The translations under genes were made by a program, and so were the position numbers. Shown piece by piece: positions 21,881 to 30,975 of a stretch of DNA of 43,565 bases. Position 1 is the first letter of the stretch, and every line of letters begins with the position of its first letter. The notes under the pieces were generated by a model. The model worked only from the letters and a program-made list of their open reading frames with translations. It searched no databases and was not told the origin of the DNA. This DNA is from a virus. The stretch lies in the IMG/VR virus record IMGVR_UViG_3300037193_000189, positions 1 through 43,565 of that record; one strand, given 5' to 3'.

Positions 21881-23632
21881 TCAGGCTAGGGTCACGTCTG
21901 CGGTACCCTGACCAGTTGGCCGTAGTGCGCTGACAACTCGTAGGGACTCGTGGCCAAACTTGACGATGTTTTCGAACGTCTCAACGAAGGTCTGGTAGTC
22001 GTTAGCAGCGTTGAGCGTGCTGTCACGGACTAGACCTAGGTCTAGGGTTCCACCGTCCATGAAGGCGAAAGTGCCCTCAGCGAACAGGTACCAAACGATG
22101 CTTGCAGGGTAGTCCTGGATTACGGCACCATCGGTGAGTGCGGGGTAGTCCTGACCAGCCTCGCCATCAAGAGCCCAGGTAACGTTGACGTTACGGCTGC
22201 TGAACCACCGGTTGATCCGAGCATCGGCAATCTCAAAGATCTCCAGACCATCGCCCGGGTGCTGCATGATGATGTCAGCGCGGAGCATGTCTAGAACCCA
22301 GGTTGGGAAGATTGCCCGTAGCGGCTGAGCACCGGTCATACGGTGCCGGTTGCGGTAGGATGCAATTCCCCGGTCCAGAACGGTAAGAACCTCACGAACC
22401 GCGCCTACCCGCTGAGCAGGAGTTGTGGCGTCGGTTGAAAGTGCACCGATCTGGGTTAGAAGCTGCTGCTCAGCAACACGAGCGTGAGCGACAAGCGCAA
22501 GCTCATTGTGGCGGGCAACTAGCTCTGGGTAAGCCCTGGTCATCAGGTTACCAAAGGTCATGATCATTGTGATTGCCTGTGTGTCAACCACAACTTCCGG
22601 ACCTGGCTCTACCCGGAATGAAGGCTTACGAGGTGATACGAAAGGAGGTGTGGCGGTGGGGTCATCCGGGTCCAGAGCAGCGATGTCGTCTGCTACGGTC
22701 CAGATACCAACCACACCGTTAACGTCGTTCAGGGTCGGTGGCCGCATGAAGCGAACTCCACCGCGCTGGGTCACGAAGACCGGAAGCGAATCACGAACGG
22801 GACGCTCGGTGCTACCAACCATGTCGAACAGGTCGTAGCGAACCTCTTCCGGTGCGCCAAGACCACCGGCGGCAACGATGGCACGCGGGTTGGTAACGGC
22901 GGAAACCTTACGTAGGTTCTCCTCTGCGTTGTTCGGAGTAAGCCTTAGCTCCTCTGAAACACCCTCAAGAGTGGCAGAAGCAACAATCAACTTGTCACCG
23001 TCACCACCGCGTAGGCCGCGCATGGTCTCAATTCGGCGAGTCATTGCGGCTGCAATGTCGGCTGCTGAGGTTAGCTCAGAACCCATTGCGTAGCCAGGGA
23101 GGTCAGCACCTGCCCGAATTACAGTGGTGCGCGCGGTCTCGCGCGTCTGAGGGCTACGGCCCTCTGGTGACTCAGGCACTTCTGTTGCCTCCTTGCCTGC
23201 ATCGGCTGTAACGGACTCCTCAGCGGCGGGAGCCTCTTCTTCTGTCTTTGGCTCCTCCACCTGTAGCTCAGCGGATGCTTCAACCTCTGGGGTCTCTGCT
23301 GGTGCTTCTGCGGCAGGTTCGGGGGTTTCGGAAGCTAGCTCAGCCTCTGCCTTCTCCTCAGCGGGAGCGGTAGCGGCTGCCTTGAAGTTGGCTAGCTTTG
23401 CGGAGAAGTCATTGCGCTTCTCCTGTGCCTCAGCGCGTCGTGCAACTTCTGCATCGTGTGCGTCAATGGCGTTTGCAAGCTCTTCCAGAACGGAAAGCTC
23501 AACAGGCTCTGCGTCTTCACCCTCAGGTGCAACAGCGCCGTCAATTTCGGAAAGAACCAGATCCCGTAGCTCTGCTAGTTCTGCATCACTCAGGGTCTCG
23601 ATTCGCCCTAGAAGTTCGCGAATGCGATCCAT
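21881..23632 (-). CDS. Major capsid protein with N-terminal scaffold domain
   Basis: The 583-residue protein has two parts. Residues 1 to about 165 are coiled coil followed by an Ala/Glu/Pro-rich acidic stretch, the usual form of a fused scaffolding (delta) domain. The rest (about 175-583) is a capsid-like domain with IRAGADLPGYAMGSE, the E-loop region, LPVFVTQRGGVRF, and a long helix with HNELALVAHARVAEQQLL. ATHL-type late strands follow (RAIFPTWVLDMLRADI; YPASIVWYLFAEGTF). The maturation protease upstream would cut between the two parts after assembly. ATG 23632 has GGAG nine bases before it. The call rests on position, length and layout, and is strong. Confidence 0.88.
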   Translation of the reverse strand: MDRIRELLGRIETLSDAELAELRDLVLSEIDGAVAPEGEDAEPVELSVLEELANAIDAHDAEVARRAEAQEKRNDFSAKLANFKAAATAPAEEKAEAELASETPEPAAEAPAETPEVEASAELQVEEPKTEEEAPAAEESVTADAGKEATEVPESPEGRSPQTRETARTTVIRAGADLPGYAMGSELTSAADIAAAMTRRIETMRGLRGGDGDKLIVASATLEGVSEELRLTPNNAEENLRKVSAVTNPRAIVAAGGLGAPEEVRYDLFDMVGSTERPVRDSLPVFVTQRGGVRFMRPPTLNDVNGVVGIWTVADDIAALDPDDPTATPPFVSPRKPSFRVEPGPEVVVDTQAITMIMTFGNLMTRAYPELVARHNELALVAHARVAEQQLLTQIGALSTDATTPAQRVGAVREVLTVLDRGIASYRNRHRMTGAQPLRAIFPTWVLDMLRADIIMQHPGDGLEIFEIADARINRWFSSRNVNVTWALDGEAGQDYPALTDGAVIQDYPASIVWYLFAEGTFAFMDGGTLDLGLVRDSTLNAANDYQTFVETFENIVKFGHESLRVVSALRPTGQGTADVTLA

Positions 23633-23756: not shown

Positions 23757-25157
23757 TTAGCGGCCTAGCCGCTGGTTGATTCGGGACAGAAGTGCATTGC
23801 GCTTTTCTGCTTCACGCTCCGCTTCTAGAGCGGCAATACGTGATTCGAGAGAAGCGATGATTCCCGGAACGGTGATACGGTCCGGGTGGTACAACTCAGT
23901 ACCGGCGGCAACCAGTGCTAGTGGCTCACCAGCGGCAACCAGGGTGCGCGGACGCTGTACAGGGAAGCCAGGAGTGTTCACCTGGCAGACGGCAACTAGC
24001 TCTAGCTTGCCGTTCACCTGTCGCCAGTCTCCGGATGGTTCAGAGGCGCGGAACGCCCTGACCTGGAAATCTGTGATGTCTGGACGCATGGCACCTGCAA
24101 CCCAGATACCAAACTCGTCCTCACCCGCTACCACATCGGCAACGGCTGAACGAGTGTCGTCATAGTGCGCCATCGCCTTCTCTGCGTTCATGTTGAGCGC
24201 GGCGTGGCCACCTGTTAGAGTGAGCTGTCCGGTAAAGACATCCACACCCTCAGAGGTGCGAACGGGACGGCGGTTGAAGTACGCGTAGTTGCTTTCAGAG
24301 CGTGGAGGCTTGATCGCAGGGTTACCAAGATGTGACGTACCCCACGTTGCGATGTGACCGAATACGCGTCCATCTTCTGTGACCTGAAGGCGAGTAGGCT
24401 GGGTGAAACCGGGGTCCGTGAACCAATCCTTGGTTGGGTGGAGCGGACCAGCAGAGGCTAGAATGACCTCCTGCTCACCCTCTTCCGTCACAAACTCAAT
24501 AGTTGCCTCCTGGAAAGCAGGCTTGGCAACCAGGGTGGCAGCAACTAGACGGCCGTGGTTGATAACAATGTTCTCGCTACCGTCATCATCTACCGAAAGC
24601 TCAGCCTCAAACTGGTCAATGTCTCCCGACACACCAGTAAGGAACTTCTCCTTCACCTGACGTGCAGCCTCTACCGCATCCTCGTGTGTATCGAACACAC
24701 CTTCTGCGTTACCGAGACCACCAGTCTCTAGCCGCTCAATGTGCGTAATCTTTCCAACCGTAACGGCACCATCGTGGCCCTGAGCAGTGGTCTTCTGCCA
24801 CATCAGGGGCATAGGTGGCTCCTTGAATTCAAGGGCACCCTGGGTGAAAGAGCGACGGTCGCCAGAAGGGATACCCTCTGGAATCACAATCGGAATGCGG
24901 AACCGACGACCGGCACCCTCAGGAAGAGTCTCAGCCGCTGGTGGTGCTGCTTCATCAACAGCCGCCGCAACAATCGTCTGAAGGGTCTTCAGTGTGTCAA
25001 TCTGGGGTAGCTCTTCAGCGTCATTCGCTACCAATGTGCTGGATTCCCAGGCGTTACCGGAGAACTCTTCTACCGCACCATCCTTCACGCGGAAAGTCTC
25101 ATCCGTGCTGGGATTCCAGAAATACCGGTAGGTTTCGTCCCACGTAACTTCAGGCAT
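23757..25157 (-). CDS. Capsid maturation (prohead) protease
   Basis: The start is taken as ATG 25157 because GGAGG lies five bases upstream; the in-frame ATG at 25169 lacks such a site. The 466-residue protein contains the protease core at about residues 85-230: IPEGIPSGDRRSF, PLMWQ, GHDGAVTVGKI with a likely catalytic His, and LTGVSGDIDQ with a likely catalytic Ser. The C-terminal half (about 240-420) is an additional beta-rich domain, and the end is a coiled coil. It is longer than simple prohead proteases (about 200 residues). It should clip the scaffold from the capsid protein encoded next. The catalytic residues are my reading from the motif. Confidence 0.85.
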   Translation of the reverse strand: MPEVTWDETYRYFWNPSTDETFRVKDGAVEEFSGNAWESSTLVANDAEELPQIDTLKTLQTIVAAAVDEAAPPAAETLPEGAGRRFRIPIVIPEGIPSGDRRSFTQGALEFKEPPMPLMWQKTTAQGHDGAVTVGKITHIERLETGGLGNAEGVFDTHEDAVEAARQVKEKFLTGVSGDIDQFEAELSVDDDGSENIVINHGRLVAATLVAKPAFQEATIEFVTEEGEQEVILASAGPLHPTKDWFTDPGFTQPTRLQVTEDGRVFGHIATWGTSHLGNPAIKPPRSESNYAYFNRRPVRTSEGVDVFTGQLTLTGGHAALNMNAEKAMAHYDDTRSAVADVVAGEDEFGIWVAGAMRPDITDFQVRAFRASEPSGDWRQVNGKLELVAVCQVNTPGFPVQRPRTLVAAGEPLALVAAGTELYHPDRITVPGIIASLESRIAALEAEREAEKRNALLSRINQRLGR

Positions 25158-25210
25158 CTGGTCCTCCATAAATCATAAGGCTACAGCAAATTATACTTTG
25201 CAATGTGTTT

Positions 25211-26329
25211 TCAGTCGTTTCTACTGTCACCGGGCCAGTAACCGTATCGCTCGTGGAACCACTCTGCGGCAATCCGCTTAGCGTATTCGGGGTTGACATA
25301 CTTCTTGATGTGGCTGAATAGCTCTGTCCAAGAATTCCACTTGGCCAGACCCTCACCGTGCAGCCAGTACCGCTTTAGTTGATTGTCGTCATTAGCGAAA
25401 ACGGAGAACGCTGGTGCCTGCTCTTCCGGGATCTCCTGATCCTGAGCAGGAATTTCCTCGGCAGGCAACTCCTCCACCGACTCATCGGCAACAGGTGCAC
25501 CCAGCGGGAAGGACATCCGGTCACCAGCCATCACCAGGTAGACGTTCTCTACTGGCCACGGCTTCTCTCCACCAGCCGGAATCTCCGTGACCTGAGGAAG
25601 TCCGTAACGAACCGTCATGTGAGGTACAAAGTCGTGATCAGAGCCCAGTTCGATTCCCATACCGGTCAGCGTTTCAACGAGGATAGAGCGGAAAGCGGCA
25701 AGACCAACACAGTTGATGGAGTACCACTGAGGAGGTCCGTCCCCGTTGTCGACAAACCACCCTGCACCCTGTACGCTCGCCTCCATCGGCTCTGAAGCCA
25801 GCACAGCCGCAGCAATGGCGGTGGAGATCTCTGCACGCTTCTGAGCGTCAAAGTCGACAGCATCACCGAGATAGGCTAGGGTGACGTGCAGTTCTTCCAT
25901 CGGCTCATCTGTAGCCTTAGGACCGGCTAGAAGCTCAGCAATCTCCGGTGGCGGGTAGATGGCAATCATTGCACCAGGATGTACCTCTGTCTCTTCATCA
26001 CCGATGGCGGCTACAACCACCTTGCGCTGCCATGCTTCCGGCAACATGTCGACACGAGACAGAGCCTTACTACGTCGGGTGATCCAGCGCTGAGCCTTAC
26101 GCTTGTTCTCTGCGAACTCGTAGGCTTCCAGCGCGTAACGGAGATGAGTGGCATTCGGGATGGGGAAACTACCGTCACTCATCGCTACGCCACGGCGCAC
26201 CCACTCACGACGCTTGGCCAGTGACTGAAGCTCTCGTAGTGCAGGGTCGCTTGAGTGCTCGCCCAAACCAACGTTGGCTAGCTTGAGCATAGGTGTAGCG
26301 AGCAACCTAGCTCGCAATTCGTTGCTCAC
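25211..26329 (-). CDS. Head-associated 2H phosphoesterase (LigT-like)
   Basis: The 372-residue protein has three parts. At 52-72 is DGSFPIPNATHLRYALEAY, a segment found in phage head-protein families. The middle is a 2H phosphoesterase with both signatures, H148-V-T150-LAYLGD and H237-M-T239-VRYG. It is followed by a Pro/Glu linker. The end (about 315-365: LKRYWLHGEGLAKWN and AKRIAAEWFHERYGYWPG) resembles a terminal domain of actinophage head proteins. 2H enzymes cut or ligate 2'-5' or cyclic phosphodiesters. In a virion gene this could degrade cyclic nucleotide signals of immunity systems, as the 2H protein Acb1 of T4 does. That role is inferred. GTG 26329 has AAGGAG upstream and overlaps the previous gene by 23 bases. 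Confidence 0.82.
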   Translation of the reverse strand: MSNELRARLLATPMLKLANVGLGEHSSDPALRELQSLAKRREWVRRGVAMSDGSFPIPNATHLRYALEAYEFAENKRKAQRWITRRSKALSRVDMLPEAWQRKVVVAAIGDEETEVHPGAMIAIYPPPEIAELLAGPKATDEPMEELHVTLAYLGDAVDFDAQKRAEISTAIAAAVLASEPMEASVQGAGWFVDNGDGPPQWYSINCVGLAAFRSILVETLTGMGIELGSDHDFVPHMTVRYGLPQVTEIPAGGEKPWPVENVYLVMAGDRMSFPLGAPVADESVEELPAEEIPAQDQEIPEEQAPAFSVFANDDNQLKRYWLHGEGLAKWNSWTELFSHIKKYVNPEYAKRIAAEWFHERYGYWPGDSRND

Positions 26330-28370
26330 TACTTTCTCCTTGTGGTGGTCGTAGATGCTTCACCGCATCCCAGTTAGTACCAAGCATGATTTCTTTACCC
26401 GGCCACGTCCTGGCTCCTGGTGTGTAACCCAGGCGGGATAGCTCAAAAGGTGTCGGGTAGTAGTTTGGATTGTTTTCCATTAGACGGAACTCGGTGTTAA
26501 GGCGCGTAGCAACCTCAGTGTATCCGGCATCTTCTGCACGAGCGCGCAACCTACCGATATGCCGCATTGCCTCAGCCTGGTTCTTGTAGTCGAATCCAGC
26601 ACGAGCCCACGCGTATCCACCGACGTCGATATTAGCGAGAATAGAGACCTTATCGACTCCATCCCGGATAAACCAGTTCTCCTGGTTACGGTACAAATCG
26701 CTGGCAATACCCTGACCCTGGAATGACGGATCAATAGTGAGGTAGTCGTTGTGTACCTCTGTGACTCGGTTGAAGTCGTTGATATCGTCGAAATGGAACG
26801 TACGGGTGATCTCCCCGATGTGCCGTCCATCCGGGGTTGTGATCCTGCCGGAAAGCTGAACAGCGGTATCCATTCGAGATACGGTACGGAACTCCACCTT
26901 TGCACCGATCCTGCCCAGACCAGTTGGACCGTTGTAGGCAGCGTGGATAGCATCCTTGAGAGCCTGCCTGTCGTTACCCGACAAAGCTTGCTGTAGCAAC
27001 TCCAGTCGCGGACCAGGTGAAGCCGCGATGTCTGCCGCACGATCACCCCAGTCTGAGTAGTTCGCAGGGTCAAAGCCACTAGGTAGGAACTGCTCTGAGG
27101 TAACACCCTCGGAGTCTCCGTCTACAGCGGTGCTGTCAATGAAGATGACCTCACTGGAATGGATGACGTGGGGGCTAGGGTATCGCGCTTCTGGATTGAC
27201 GTAGGTGATAACTCCGGTATTGGGATTGATGTGAGAGATCTGCATCCGCTCACCGTTTACATCAATGAAGTCGTCAACCTCTAGCTTATGACCATCGGCA
27301 TCGGTGGCAGTTGCCGGGGCAGGATCCTCTACCTCAGCGTCATCCTCATCATCCCAACCAGGATCCACATCTCCAGGATCGTATTCGTAATCCTCGTCCA
27401 CATCCTCGTAGATGATTTCGTCCTCATCACCGTAAGCCGCCTCACGGTAACGCCTAATGCGTTCGTCAAGCTCACTGATGGTTGCTCCATCTTCATCAAA
27501 GCCAGCATTGACGAGACGTTCCCTGAGCTGTCCACCCAGGTAAACGGCTGCTTCATATGCCTGCCCATCCCCGGTTGACTCAGCCGCCTGTGACGCTTGC
27601 TCAAACTGCTCCTGGATGCCTACCACGTGATCTGGGATCTCAGGTTCGTCACCCTGTGGAGCGTTTCCGCCTTCTAGACGCTCCATCTCTGCGCTGTGAT
27701 GCCCTAGAAGCTCTCGCACCCGCACTACTCGGGAGTCCTCTGCGTCCATACCTGCACGCAGCATCTGAGCAAGGGTTGTGTTAAGCTCTCGTCCGGCAAT
27801 CGAGTGGTCTTCAAGGGATCCGGTCTGGTCGGCACGGCTGGATGCCCTCATAGCCACCTGTAGCTGAACCCGCACATGCTCTGGTAGCTTGGCCGCGTCT
27901 TCAGATGGTGGCTCTTCTGTGCCCTCTTCCGCCATGCGGTCAAGCTCTGGCACGCTATCGGAGTGCATCTCCTCTGTACGCGTCAGAGTTGAGGGGTCCA
28001 TGTCCTGATTGCTGTCCTCATGGTCAGGATGTCCCACCGTGATAGAGCCGTCAGCGTTGATGGACTTGATTTCATGGAATCCTGGTGCGTCGGTGTGGCC
28101 AACCATGTCACCGACGCTTGCCAAAGTACCGTCTCCGATGTATGCTGAACCCTCTGGTGGTTCTGCTACGGTCAATCGGTCGGTAGGAATGGTGCCTAGA
28201 CGTCCATCCGGAAGCTCAACCAGCGCTTCTGCTGGATCTCCTTCCAAACGCCCTGGCCTAAGCCCTCGAACCGTACCGATTAGACCTCCAGATACCCGGA
28301 CGTGAACGCCCTTTGTCACAAATCGACCACGCCAGTCCCGAGGATGCTCGTGTTCGCGCCAAATTGCCAT
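26307..28370 (-). CDS. Head-associated protein with GNAT-like domain
   Basis: The 687-residue product starts with EHPRDWRGRFVTKG, a motif common at the N termini of phage head and MuF-linked proteins. A long acidic middle follows (residues about 115-370, very rich in Asp and Glu), with a small beta domain near 365-420. Residues about 470-630 look like a GNAT acetyltransferase: LTIDPSFQGQGIASDLYR near 545-560 is the acetyl-CoA loop (Q-x2-G-x-G/A), and GGYAWARAGFDY near 585 matches the C-terminal GNAT strand/helix. It lies between the portal-MuF fusion and the 2H phosphoesterase, so it is probably in the head. The substrate is unknown. Alternatively the domain is structural only. Start and stop overlap both neighbours. 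Confidence 0.7.
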   Translation of the reverse strand: MAIWREHEHPRDWRGRFVTKGVHVRVSGGLIGTVRGLRPGRLEGDPAEALVELPDGRLGTIPTDRLTVAEPPEGSAYIGDGTLASVGDMVGHTDAPGFHEIKSINADGSITVGHPDHEDSNQDMDPSTLTRTEEMHSDSVPELDRMAEEGTEEPPSEDAAKLPEHVRVQLQVAMRASSRADQTGSLEDHSIAGRELNTTLAQMLRAGMDAEDSRVVRVRELLGHHSAEMERLEGGNAPQGDEPEIPDHVVGIQEQFEQASQAAESTGDGQAYEAAVYLGGQLRERLVNAGFDEDGATISELDERIRRYREAAYGDEDEIIYEDVDEDYEYDPGDVDPGWDDEDDAEVEDPAPATATDADGHKLEVDDFIDVNGERMQISHINPNTGVITYVNPEARYPSPHVIHSSEVIFIDSTAVDGDSEGVTSEQFLPSGFDPANYSDWGDRAADIAASPGPRLELLQQALSGNDRQALKDAIHAAYNGPTGLGRIGAKVEFRTVSRMDTAVQLSGRITTPDGRHIGEITRTFHFDDINDFNRVTEVHNDYLTIDPSFQGQGIASDLYRNQENWFIRDGVDKVSILANIDVGGYAWARAGFDYKNQAEAMRHIGRLRARAEDAGYTEVATRLNTEFRLMENNPNYYPTPFELSRLGYTPGARTWPGKEIMLGTNWDAVKHLRPPQGESSEQRIAS

Positions 28371-28579
28371 CAGAAATCCTCGGAATCAATGATTTCAGCA
28401 GCCTTGCTCTGGAATTCTGCTTCAATTTCCGGCCGAGGGTCAAAATCCACGTGCCATACGTTGTAATCACCCGACTCCGGACGTGATTCAGGGTTGAATT
28501 CGTCCGTATCTACGTTGGCCTTGACCCACTTGTAGTGCAGTTCGGCGAGATCTCGCAGCATTTCAAACCGGTTGCTCAT
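28370..28579 (-). CDS. Small acidic protein, 69 aa
   Basis: It starts ATGA-overlapped with the portal stop and its TGA shares a base with the next ATG (TGATG), so it lies exactly between two large genes. The product has an N-terminal helix with Lys/Trp/His, then an acidic half with many Asp and Glu, ending SEDF. No family is recognised. Its place next to the portal and GNAT-like protein suggests a head role or an assembly partner. Confidence 0.75.
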   Translation of the reverse strand: MSNRFEMLRDLAELHYKWVKANVDTDEFNPESRPESGDYNVWHVDFDPRPEIEAEFQSKAAEIIDSEDF

Positions 28580-30975
28580 ACTCCCACCTTAGCAGGCTGA
28601 TCAATTACGACCGGAAGCCAATCACAGCGGCATCCTGTGTGGTCTCCTGGGTAATAATGGGTGACATAAGGGAACTCACCAGATGGAGCCGACAACTCCT
28701 CTACGTCCCAGGAGTCAAATACCTTGTCGTCAAGCCTCTGGTGAGGTTCAAATTCGTTCTCCGAGAAGTGATGAACCCACTTGAAGCCCGTTGCCATGTC
28801 CCATTCTGTCTGGGTGATAGCGTCTACCGACAGAACCGCGCGACCGGAGTCAACGGGGCTGTCCGGAGATCCGCCACCCGCGACTGCCGTAGCCTTCCGG
28901 ACTAGCCCCATGTCCACGTAGGCTGCCTGGGAGTCGGGGTTACGGAGCCTTTCGGCGGCTGCTTCCACCAGTCGGGAAGCTAGCCAGTCCCACGCCTTAG
29001 CTACGTTGGCGTCCTGGTTCGGTCGCATCTTCTCATAGATGCCCAGTGCGCGCCAACCGCGTGCCTGAGCCTCCTTAATCAACCCCTCGAACGACGAACG
29101 GGCACGATCGATGGTGTCCCGCACTAGCTTACGTTGGTCTTCTAGACCGAACTCCGCTAGCCGATCGGCCGGAATCTGCGCTAGAGCCTCTTCCACCGCG
29201 ACAGCGGCAACTAGTGGCTTCAGCTCTGCGTCATTCCGTACCTTGGAGATGGTACGAGCACCAGCCTTCTCCAACGCGCGGGCAACCACGTCATTGAGAT
29301 GGGTATAGACGGCTTCTCGTAGCTCTCGCTCCACTCCTAGAGCACGCTCAAGCTTCTTGTTCCGAGCAACCGTGATATCAGACGGACGCGCCGCCTTAGC
29401 CGCCGCAAATTGCTTCAGGAGGTGCAGTACCTGTGCGTCACGAACGGAAAATGGCTCTGGTGGAGGTAGCGTGCCTTCCGGTGGTTCTGGTGCGGGAGGT
29501 GTGGTCTCGGGTGGACTCTGCGGAATGGCAGGCTGAGCATCCGGTGTGTCCTGTGGTGCGAGATCACTGGGCTCTGTCTTTCGCGTCGGGTCGCCGAATG
29601 ACTGCTGTGCCAGTTGCTCTGCTTCCTTGACCAGATCCGGAGCAACCTGCCGTAGGAAGTCCAGGGTGGTGGAAGGAGCTACGGAACCAGACAGTGCAAC
29701 TCGCAACGCTAGTTCTTCATCAGTCGGTGCGTCAGCCTCAGAGAAGCCGTGAGCACGTCGCCATGCAGCACCGGAGATGAGCATACGGCCGTAACCCTTG
29801 TCCGCGTCCTCAGAGCGGTCAGGCTTGGTAACAACCTCACTCGGGTCATACCAGACGTGTACGCGGTTAACCTCGTTGAGATCGTAGCCACGAGCAATGA
29901 GCGCCGGACGTAAGTATACGGTGGTCAATGCCTCACACAACAGAAGGATCATCGGCTCAATGTGAGCCTTGAGAAGATCCTGACTGATGGTCTGTGCATT
30001 GGAGTAGCGGACTCCAGACATACCCTGGATGAATTCCTTAGGCAAGTCGATACCGTCTAGAACTCGGTTCAGCGTCTTCTCATGGCGCTCTAGGATCGTG
30101 TCGTCAAAGCCGCGCGAGATGTCAAACATCTTAATTGCTGTCTCGGCAAGCTCTGCTGGACCACGAATGATCATCGGGATGATCTCTGACTGAGACTCGC
30201 CTTCTACCGGTTCCGTGAGGGAGAGAATCAACTCCTCCTCAAACGGGTCTGTATCCGGCTGTGCCGTGTCTCCTGACGGGTCTACAGACCGCTGGAAGCG
30301 TAGTTCGTCGGCAACGTACATGATGCCCGCGTTCAGGCGAGACTGACCGGATACCCGAATGATCCTGGAGAGAAGTAGAAGTTCCTGGCAAGCCTCTTCC
30401 ACGCCACGCAGGGACGAGTCTGCTTCTGCCGAGAACTTAGGGTGTGTTCGCCAGATGCGGGCAATGAAGTCATCCTCAGCCAGATACTCACCAGGCTCTG
30501 ACTGCCGCTCTCGTAGGCGTACCCGGTTGTTGGCTTCCGGAACGATCTCCTCATTGGAGCGAATCGACCACTTGTCACCCTGCCCTAGAAGGTGGCATTC
30601 TCCCGCAACCAGTAGGTTGAGCACAGCGGTACGAATGAAGTTCGGTGCTCCACCAGGACCGTTGAAAAGCTTATTCAGCTCATAACGTGCCGCGTTAACA
30701 AGGTCCCGATCCAGACCACCTACGTCACCAATAGGTGCGGGAGTCTCGGCATCATCGGTTTGGTACCCAGCAAGCAGACGCACACGGGAAGTGATTTGAG
30801 CAAAGTAATTGAAGCCGTACTTGATTTCACCAATCGCGTCATAATGTCGCCACGCTAGACGCTGCCACTCAAACGACGTTCGGTCTCTTAGCTTCTCAAC
30901 CTCTGCCTTACGAGCGAGATTGATTCGGCGTGCTGAGCCGACAATAGCGTTAGGCTCATTACGATTACGAGGCAT
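28576..30975 (-). CDS. Portal protein fused to MuF-like domain
   Basis: The 799-residue protein is a portal in its first ~470 residues. It has WQRLAWRHYDAIGEIKYGF near the start, RTAVLNLLVAGECHL and LSRIIRVSGQSRL, followed by FDISRGFDDTILERH and IDLPKEFIQGMSGVRYSNA. A Pro-rich linker (about 480-520) follows. The last ~280 residues are mostly helical and end with the MuF-like signature: W-x-HH...HQRLDDKVF (about 740-750), then YPGDHTGCRCDWLPV (about 775-790). Portals form the dodecameric DNA gate, and MuF-like parts are minor head components. Fusion of the two is seen in some actinophages. The start ATG 30975 has only a modest GGGA site upstream. It follows the moron terminator by 75 bases. 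Confidence 0.88.
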   Translation of the reverse strand: MPRNRNEPNAIVGSARRINLARKAEVEKLRDRTSFEWQRLAWRHYDAIGEIKYGFNYFAQITSRVRLLAGYQTDDAETPAPIGDVGGLDRDLVNAARYELNKLFNGPGGAPNFIRTAVLNLLVAGECHLLGQGDKWSIRSNEEIVPEANNRVRLRERQSEPGEYLAEDDFIARIWRTHPKFSAEADSSLRGVEEACQELLLLSRIIRVSGQSRLNAGIMYVADELRFQRSVDPSGDTAQPDTDPFEEELILSLTEPVEGESQSEIIPMIIRGPAELAETAIKMFDISRGFDDTILERHEKTLNRVLDGIDLPKEFIQGMSGVRYSNAQTISQDLLKAHIEPMILLLCEALTTVYLRPALIARGYDLNEVNRVHVWYDPSEVVTKPDRSEDADKGYGRMLISGAAWRRAHGFSEADAPTDEELALRVALSGSVAPSTTLDFLRQVAPDLVKEAEQLAQQSFGDPTRKTEPSDLAPQDTPDAQPAIPQSPPETTPPAPEPPEGTLPPPEPFSVRDAQVLHLLKQFAAAKAARPSDITVARNKKLERALGVERELREAVYTHLNDVVARALEKAGARTISKVRNDAELKPLVAAVAVEEALAQIPADRLAEFGLEDQRKLVRDTIDRARSSFEGLIKEAQARGWRALGIYEKMRPNQDANVAKAWDWLASRLVEAAAERLRNPDSQAAYVDMGLVRKATAVAGGGSPDSPVDSGRAVLSVDAITQTEWDMATGFKWVHHFSENEFEPHQRLDDKVFDSWDVEELSAPSGEFPYVTHYYPGDHTGCRCDWLPVVIDQPAKVGV

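Follow-up and report, generated by a model that had tools for sequence, protein, structure and literature searches.

The head-gene block of the virus record analyzed here (the window, 43,565 bases) contains a gene that encodes a genuine 2H phosphoesterase, as judged by its domain, motifs, and predicted fold. The enzyme domain is placed between two segments of head-protein type, and we read it, with a probability of about 0.5, as an accessory phosphodiesterase that is carried in the head and acts at entry on a defence-related nucleotide. The features underlying this reading were all computed here: the domain and its fold, the conserved catalytic residues, the location among head genes, the head-type flanks, and the accessory and mobile character of the enzyme.

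The gene and its surroundings

Structural genes in the window follow the order terminase, portal, a 687-aa gene, the 2H gene, protease, and major head protein, and then the tail genes. The preliminary description of this DNA had located the 2H gene between portal and protease; this order is confirmed, with the 687-aa gene also lying between the portal and 2H genes. The features are as follows.

28576..30975, minus strand: portal protein (phrog_776, E 3e-93)
26307..28370, minus strand: 687-aa gene, GNAT-like domain close to the C end (Pfam GNAT, weak and below cut-off)
26336..26341, minus strand: Shine-Dalgarno sequence AAGGAG, 5' of the GTG start (from the sequence)
25211..26329, minus strand: 2H phosphoesterase head gene, 372 aa, GTG start (open reading frame; PF13563; phrog_18402 and phrog_2659)
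25991..26203, minus strand: N-terminal head-protein domain, aa ~43–113 (tblastn, 19 phage records)
25484..25987, minus strand: 2H phosphoesterase domain, aa ~115–282 (HMM; AlphaFold2 model and PDB matches)
25880..25888, minus strand: catalytic motif 1, H148-V-T150 (invariant in 59 sequences)
25613..25621, minus strand: catalytic motif 2, H237-M-T239 (His invariant; Thr in 58/59, Ser in 1/59)
25604..25606, minus strand: Tyr242, aligned with Arg130 of LigT (Tyr in 57/59)
25214..25396, minus strand: C-terminal domain ('tag', phrog_6439), aa 312–372 (phrog_6439, E 1.8e-13)
23757..25169, minus strand: head maturation protease (phrog_859, phrog_18402, and phrog_29860; TIGR01543 weak and below cut-off)
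21881..23632, minus strand: major head protein (phrog_777, E 2e-84)

At the DNA level, the window as a whole has no relatives in the phage collection, and PADLOC defence models gave only weak, unrelated matches. Genes for dCMP deaminase and thymidylate synthase are located at 917–2042 on the plus strand, opposite to the structural genes. The GNAT-like domain of the 687-aa protein is also found fused behind a protease-2H protein in Micromonospora (L017) and in a viral contig (L036); from these fusions, the 687-aa protein may be a second head cargo.

Conservation of the catalytic residues

The gene product scores 31.5 bits with PF13563 (2'-5' RNA ligase superfamily, 2H; cut-off 27 bits, E 2e-7), and it also matches the PHROG profile for head maturation protease/2H (E 4e-18). 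The match of its 2H domain to the family HMM has an E of 2.5e-58, with the query itself being a member of that model. Both H-x-T signatures that had been described, His148/Thr150 and His237/Thr239, are intact and at exactly the positions claimed. Across 59 aligned domains, with identities to the query of about 26–39%, the residues H148, T150, H237, L147, L151, G155, and F192 are invariant. Invariance of catalytic residues in sequences this divergent argues for maintenance of catalytic function. The second Thr is missing from some relatives, the Streptomyces members of the Woodruffvirus type: in three loci (L008, L012, and L015, comprising these types and a plasmid prophage) the second HxT is replaced by HxA or HxC, and the activity of these domains is possibly altered or lost.

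Fold and family placement

An AlphaFold2 model of the domain has a confident 2H fold (pLDDT about 94); in the PDB, its highest-scoring structural matches come from bacterial CPDases and from LigT (Z 17.6, 17.2, and 16.2). These results bear out the 2H fold that had been claimed. LigT types superpose with Z of 16–18 and rmsd of 2.6–3.6 over 152–158 residues; rotavirus VP3 and Usb1 have Z of about 13, and Acb1 has 9.5 over 129 residues. Profile searches of the family gave the same ranking, with E of 8e-11 to 1e-5 for LigT types and 0.004 for Acb1, and a phmmer search of the PDB with the single protein gave no match. The preliminary description had named LigT, tRNA cyclic phosphodiesterases, and Acb1 as structures for comparison and had pointed to Acb1 as a model: the likeness to LigT-type RNA 2',3'-cyclic phosphodiesterases stands, being far better than that to Acb1, and a kinship with Acb1 in particular is not supported.

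Searches with family models point in the same direction. The Pfam model of Acb1 (PF23474) does not match the 2H protein even at an E of 10, with T4 57B as a control scoring 202.7 bits, and the ThpR equivalog model TIGR02258 is matched with 26 bits against a cut-off of 65.7. Some relatives match the Acb1 model weakly, below its cut-off, and alignment of the 2H profile with T4 57B by hhalign has a probability of 94%. In LigT, a protein whose biological role is not known, Arg130 is located five residues past the second His, where it binds phosphate and helps to position water (PMC5283653). This position is occupied by Arg in E. coli ThpR and by Tyr in 31 of 31 Acb1 relatives, and is therefore a mixed sign for the window protein, which has Tyr242. 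The HxT/HxT tetrad, a feature of Acb1 (Hobbs 2022), is also present in it. Since it fails both family models, ranks by fold with LigT types, and has Tyr in place of Arg130, we place it outside both the ThpR orthologues and the Acb1 family; its assignment as an Acb1 homologue was rejected on the family model and the fold ranking. By sequence and model, it is predicted to be a 2H enzyme of the LigT-like kind that has a single feature in common with Acb1.

Flanking domains and an empty slot in Atuin

The flanks had been described as being of head-protein type, and both segments are indeed found in other phage head proteins. Matches to the N-terminal domain include proteins annotated as capsid maturation protease and portal and extend to a Bacteroides phage; the domain is also present in Atuin gp74 and GMA6 Orf19. 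The C-terminal domain, phrog_6439, is more widely shared: its partners in 59 viral-contig proteins include Phage_portal (18), MuF (11), 2H (6), Portal_Mu (5), ADP-ribosyltransferase (4), and S78 protease (3). Of 80 contigs with the domain (loci L155–L234), 52 have it no more than 18 residues from the C-terminus; 17 are ORFs of no more than 150 aa, the domain also occurring in small, solo ORFs. This occurrence in portals, MuF proteins, proteases, and enzymes is the less expected feature of the analysis. Modelled alone by AlphaFold2, the domain is small and helical (pLDDT 83.5); the model has no significant Foldseek match in the PDB, and a second comparison with the PDB gave no Z above 4.3.

We regard the phrog_6439 domain as a candidate head-docking tag. 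A solo copy in the non-head arm of Mendokysei is a caution against this idea. A broader proposal, that the domain is a general docking tag of actinophage-type heads that loads exchangeable enzymes (2H, ADP-ribosyltransferase) into the prohead for delivery at DNA entry, here an eraser of immune nucleotides acting before transcription, is put forward only tentatively and is the less probable part of our account.

Among the matches listed, Atuin is the closest relative of the head module, with 48% identity in the major head protein and 51% in the protease (gp75). Directly upstream of its protease is a 799-aa protein in which the two segments that flank the 2H domain in the window are separated by only about 35 residues. 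No 2H match occurs anywhere in the 194-kb Atuin genome. A head of this type can therefore be made without the enzyme, and with the flanks in the same slot, the 2H enzyme appears to be accessory cargo rather than a structural need. From sequence comparison, the pair can be read as a natural experiment in which the slot is empty in Atuin and filled in the window.

Relatives, fusions, and mobility

Relatives of the 2H protein were identified by tblastn in 327 phage records, all with less than 60% identity, from hosts that are mainly Mycobacterium and Gordonia but also Streptomyces and Arthrobacter. Plasmids of Streptomyces, Micromonospora, and Deinococcus also contain 2H relatives, several of them surrounded by phage head genes. 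A search of viral contigs with the single protein gave no match; a search with an alignment and profile gave 295 loci, of which 80 were kept.

The fusion partners of relatives in the 327 records are often portal, MuF, protease, or capsid domains. Pfam analysis of 54 full-length relatives identified XkdF protease (11), Phage_portal (7), Mu-like protease (5), MuF (5), and S78 protease (4), along with Mu-type and other portal families and, in a few, capsid families. On a tree of 104 2H domains, the starred branches force at least four changes for portal, at least five for 2H-MuF, and at least five for S78/glag, which suggests that the domain has moved many times between head proteins. The window domain clusters with XkdF-fused copies, including Streptomyces sequences, with moderate support (92/84). 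The portal, protease, and major head protein of phage GMA2 are related to those of the window, and the GMA2 2H domain is in a different starred clade. Along with its absence from Atuin, this repeated fusion to different head proteins is in keeping with the cargo-like behavior attributed earlier to the enzyme. The arrangement of N-terminal head domain, 2H domain, and phrog_6439 was not seen among the other 2H-bearing proteins compared.

Other enzyme domains are found near these proteins. A solo 2H protein of mycobacteriophage I3 (L014, 4623–5534) has an extra N-terminal domain of about 145 aa that resembles an ADP-ribosyltransferase by eye. Genes described by the phage authors as VIP2-like ADP-ribosyltransferases are present in GMA6 (L104, 84–1199) and GMA2 (L103, 8581–9312), where they share the head block with the 2H protein; in GMA6 the two genes adjoin.

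Possible presence in virions

GenBank KR063281 labels the 2H-bearing Orf10 of GMA2 a putative structural protein, and gives its portal and major head protein the same label. The source study describes mass spectrometry on purified virions (PMC4524720), and evidence other than peptides may underlie the label. Orf18 of GTE6, a protease-tag-2H protein from the same study, is annotated only as a hypothetical protein. In a literature search on virion proteomics of 2H proteins, PMC4524720 alone was relevant.

Proposed role and alternatives

We propose that the gene encodes a LigT-like, metal-independent 2H phosphodiesterase, an accessory enzyme with a head-protein domain on either side; these domains would most likely carry it into the prohead. 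It would probably ride into the bacterium with the DNA, and once ejected it would act in the cytoplasm ahead of phage transcription. Its most likely activity would be hydrolysis of a nucleotide that host defence produces or sets free; candidate substrates are a 2'-5' or cyclic oligonucleotide signal, and a 2',3'-cyclic-phosphate end or nucleotide. We infer packaging, ejection, activity, and target alike. The joining of phrog_6439 to ADP-ribosyltransferases counts in favor of the cargo reading, and the sequence and fold, which are nearer to LigT than to a proven immune eraser, count against the proposal, as does the missing second Thr of some relatives.

The nearest solved structures are RNA 2',3'-cyclic phosphodiesterases, and the enzyme could instead heal RNA ends, opening 2',3'-cyclic phosphates on host or phage tRNA cut by defence nucleases to allow re-ligation. 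The partners of such a pathway are missing by model cut-off: RNA_ligase (PF09414), RtcB (PF01139), and KptA (PF01885) were found above cut-off in 0 of 35 relatives in searches whose positive controls worked, with two PF09414 matches and one KptA match below cut-off. The count for PF09511 was also zero, but with no positive control for that model it carries no information. The absence of RNA ligases and KptA argues against plain RNA repair, and the window itself is without tRNA genes; host ligases could still serve, and we consider RNA healing unlikely, though one of the two main rivals. An Acb1-type anti-CBASS nuclease, cutting 3'3' cyclic di- and trinucleotides through attack by the 2'-OH, is a little less likely again. 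It would share the superfamily, the tetrad, and Tyr at the Arg130 position, and the hhalign result and weak Pfam matches of some relatives lend it some weight, but the window protein is unmatched by PF23474, and both its structural and its profile scores (best E 8e-11 for a LigT type) are far better for LigT types.

Head-fused 2H domains have also been suggested to be injected, Usb1-like RNases that attack host RNA at entry (Iyer 2017, PMC5512222). The fold similarity to Usb1 agrees with this, but LigT types fit better, and an injected RNase is improbable for the window protein. Least probable is retention of the domain for head assembly with catalysis being irrelevant. The 2H domain is nearly always found with head genes, and one group lacks the second Thr; against this, the catalytic His and Thr are invariant in highly divergent copies, and the related Atuin head is built without the domain. 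An accessory, head-carried phosphodiesterase is favored by the absence of repair partners together with the structural label of the GMA2 protein, with the GTE6 label also being weighed.

Relation to known systems and significance

Fusions of 2H domains to MuF or portal proteins have been described, with proposed roles as RNases or in nucleotide degradation, argued from missing RNA repair partners (Iyer 2017, PMC5512222), and head-fused 2H domains were later proposed to be packaged, injected, and to act on immune nucleotides (Iyer 2022, PMC9503650). The packaged immune eraser of the preliminary description is thus a hypothesis already published. New here are the architecture of the window protein, the comparison with Atuin, the placement with LigT rather than Acb1, and how widely the C-terminal domain is shared. 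The window protein shares with the described fusions a 2H domain within head proteins, but is encoded by a separate gene, between the N-terminal head domain and phrog_6439. The actinophage head genes Verity gp18, Phlop gp17 (a solo 2H gene), and Abt2graduatex2 gp11 carry this domain at the corresponding place in their head operons; they differ in fusion partners and order, and have about 30% identity to the window protein. LigT and ThpR have the fold and the first motif, HxTLxxLG, in common with the window protein, which differs in its Tyr for Arg130, its sub-threshold TIGR02258 score, and its location in a phage head gene. Like T4 Acb1, it is a phage enzyme of the 2H superfamily with a Tyr after the second motif; unlike it, the window protein does not match the Acb1 model, the first motif of Acb1 being HSTICYS and T4 acb1 being free-standing. 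The T4 gene (57B; L099, 92–911) adjoins ipI, a gene for an internal virion protein, as the Acb1 paper also says.

Actinophage head genes of this type carry the labels 'RNA ligase' or 'head maturation protease'. The first label appears to stem from the old name of the 2H family. No RNA ligase domain was found above cut-off in the checked genomes with this annotation (for example, NC_055920 gp17 and NC_041947 gp18), so for head-region 2H domains the label looks misleading, and indications are that such annotations in actinophage head genes describe a phosphodiesterase domain.

The pairing of Atuin with the window, along with the recurrent C-terminal domain, makes cargo loading of siphovirus heads testable in cultured phages of Gordonia and Arthrobacter. 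Provided that the enzyme leaves the head together with the DNA, nucleotide-based immunity could be disarmed ahead of any phage transcription, something beyond the reach of a gene whose expression starts only after entry.
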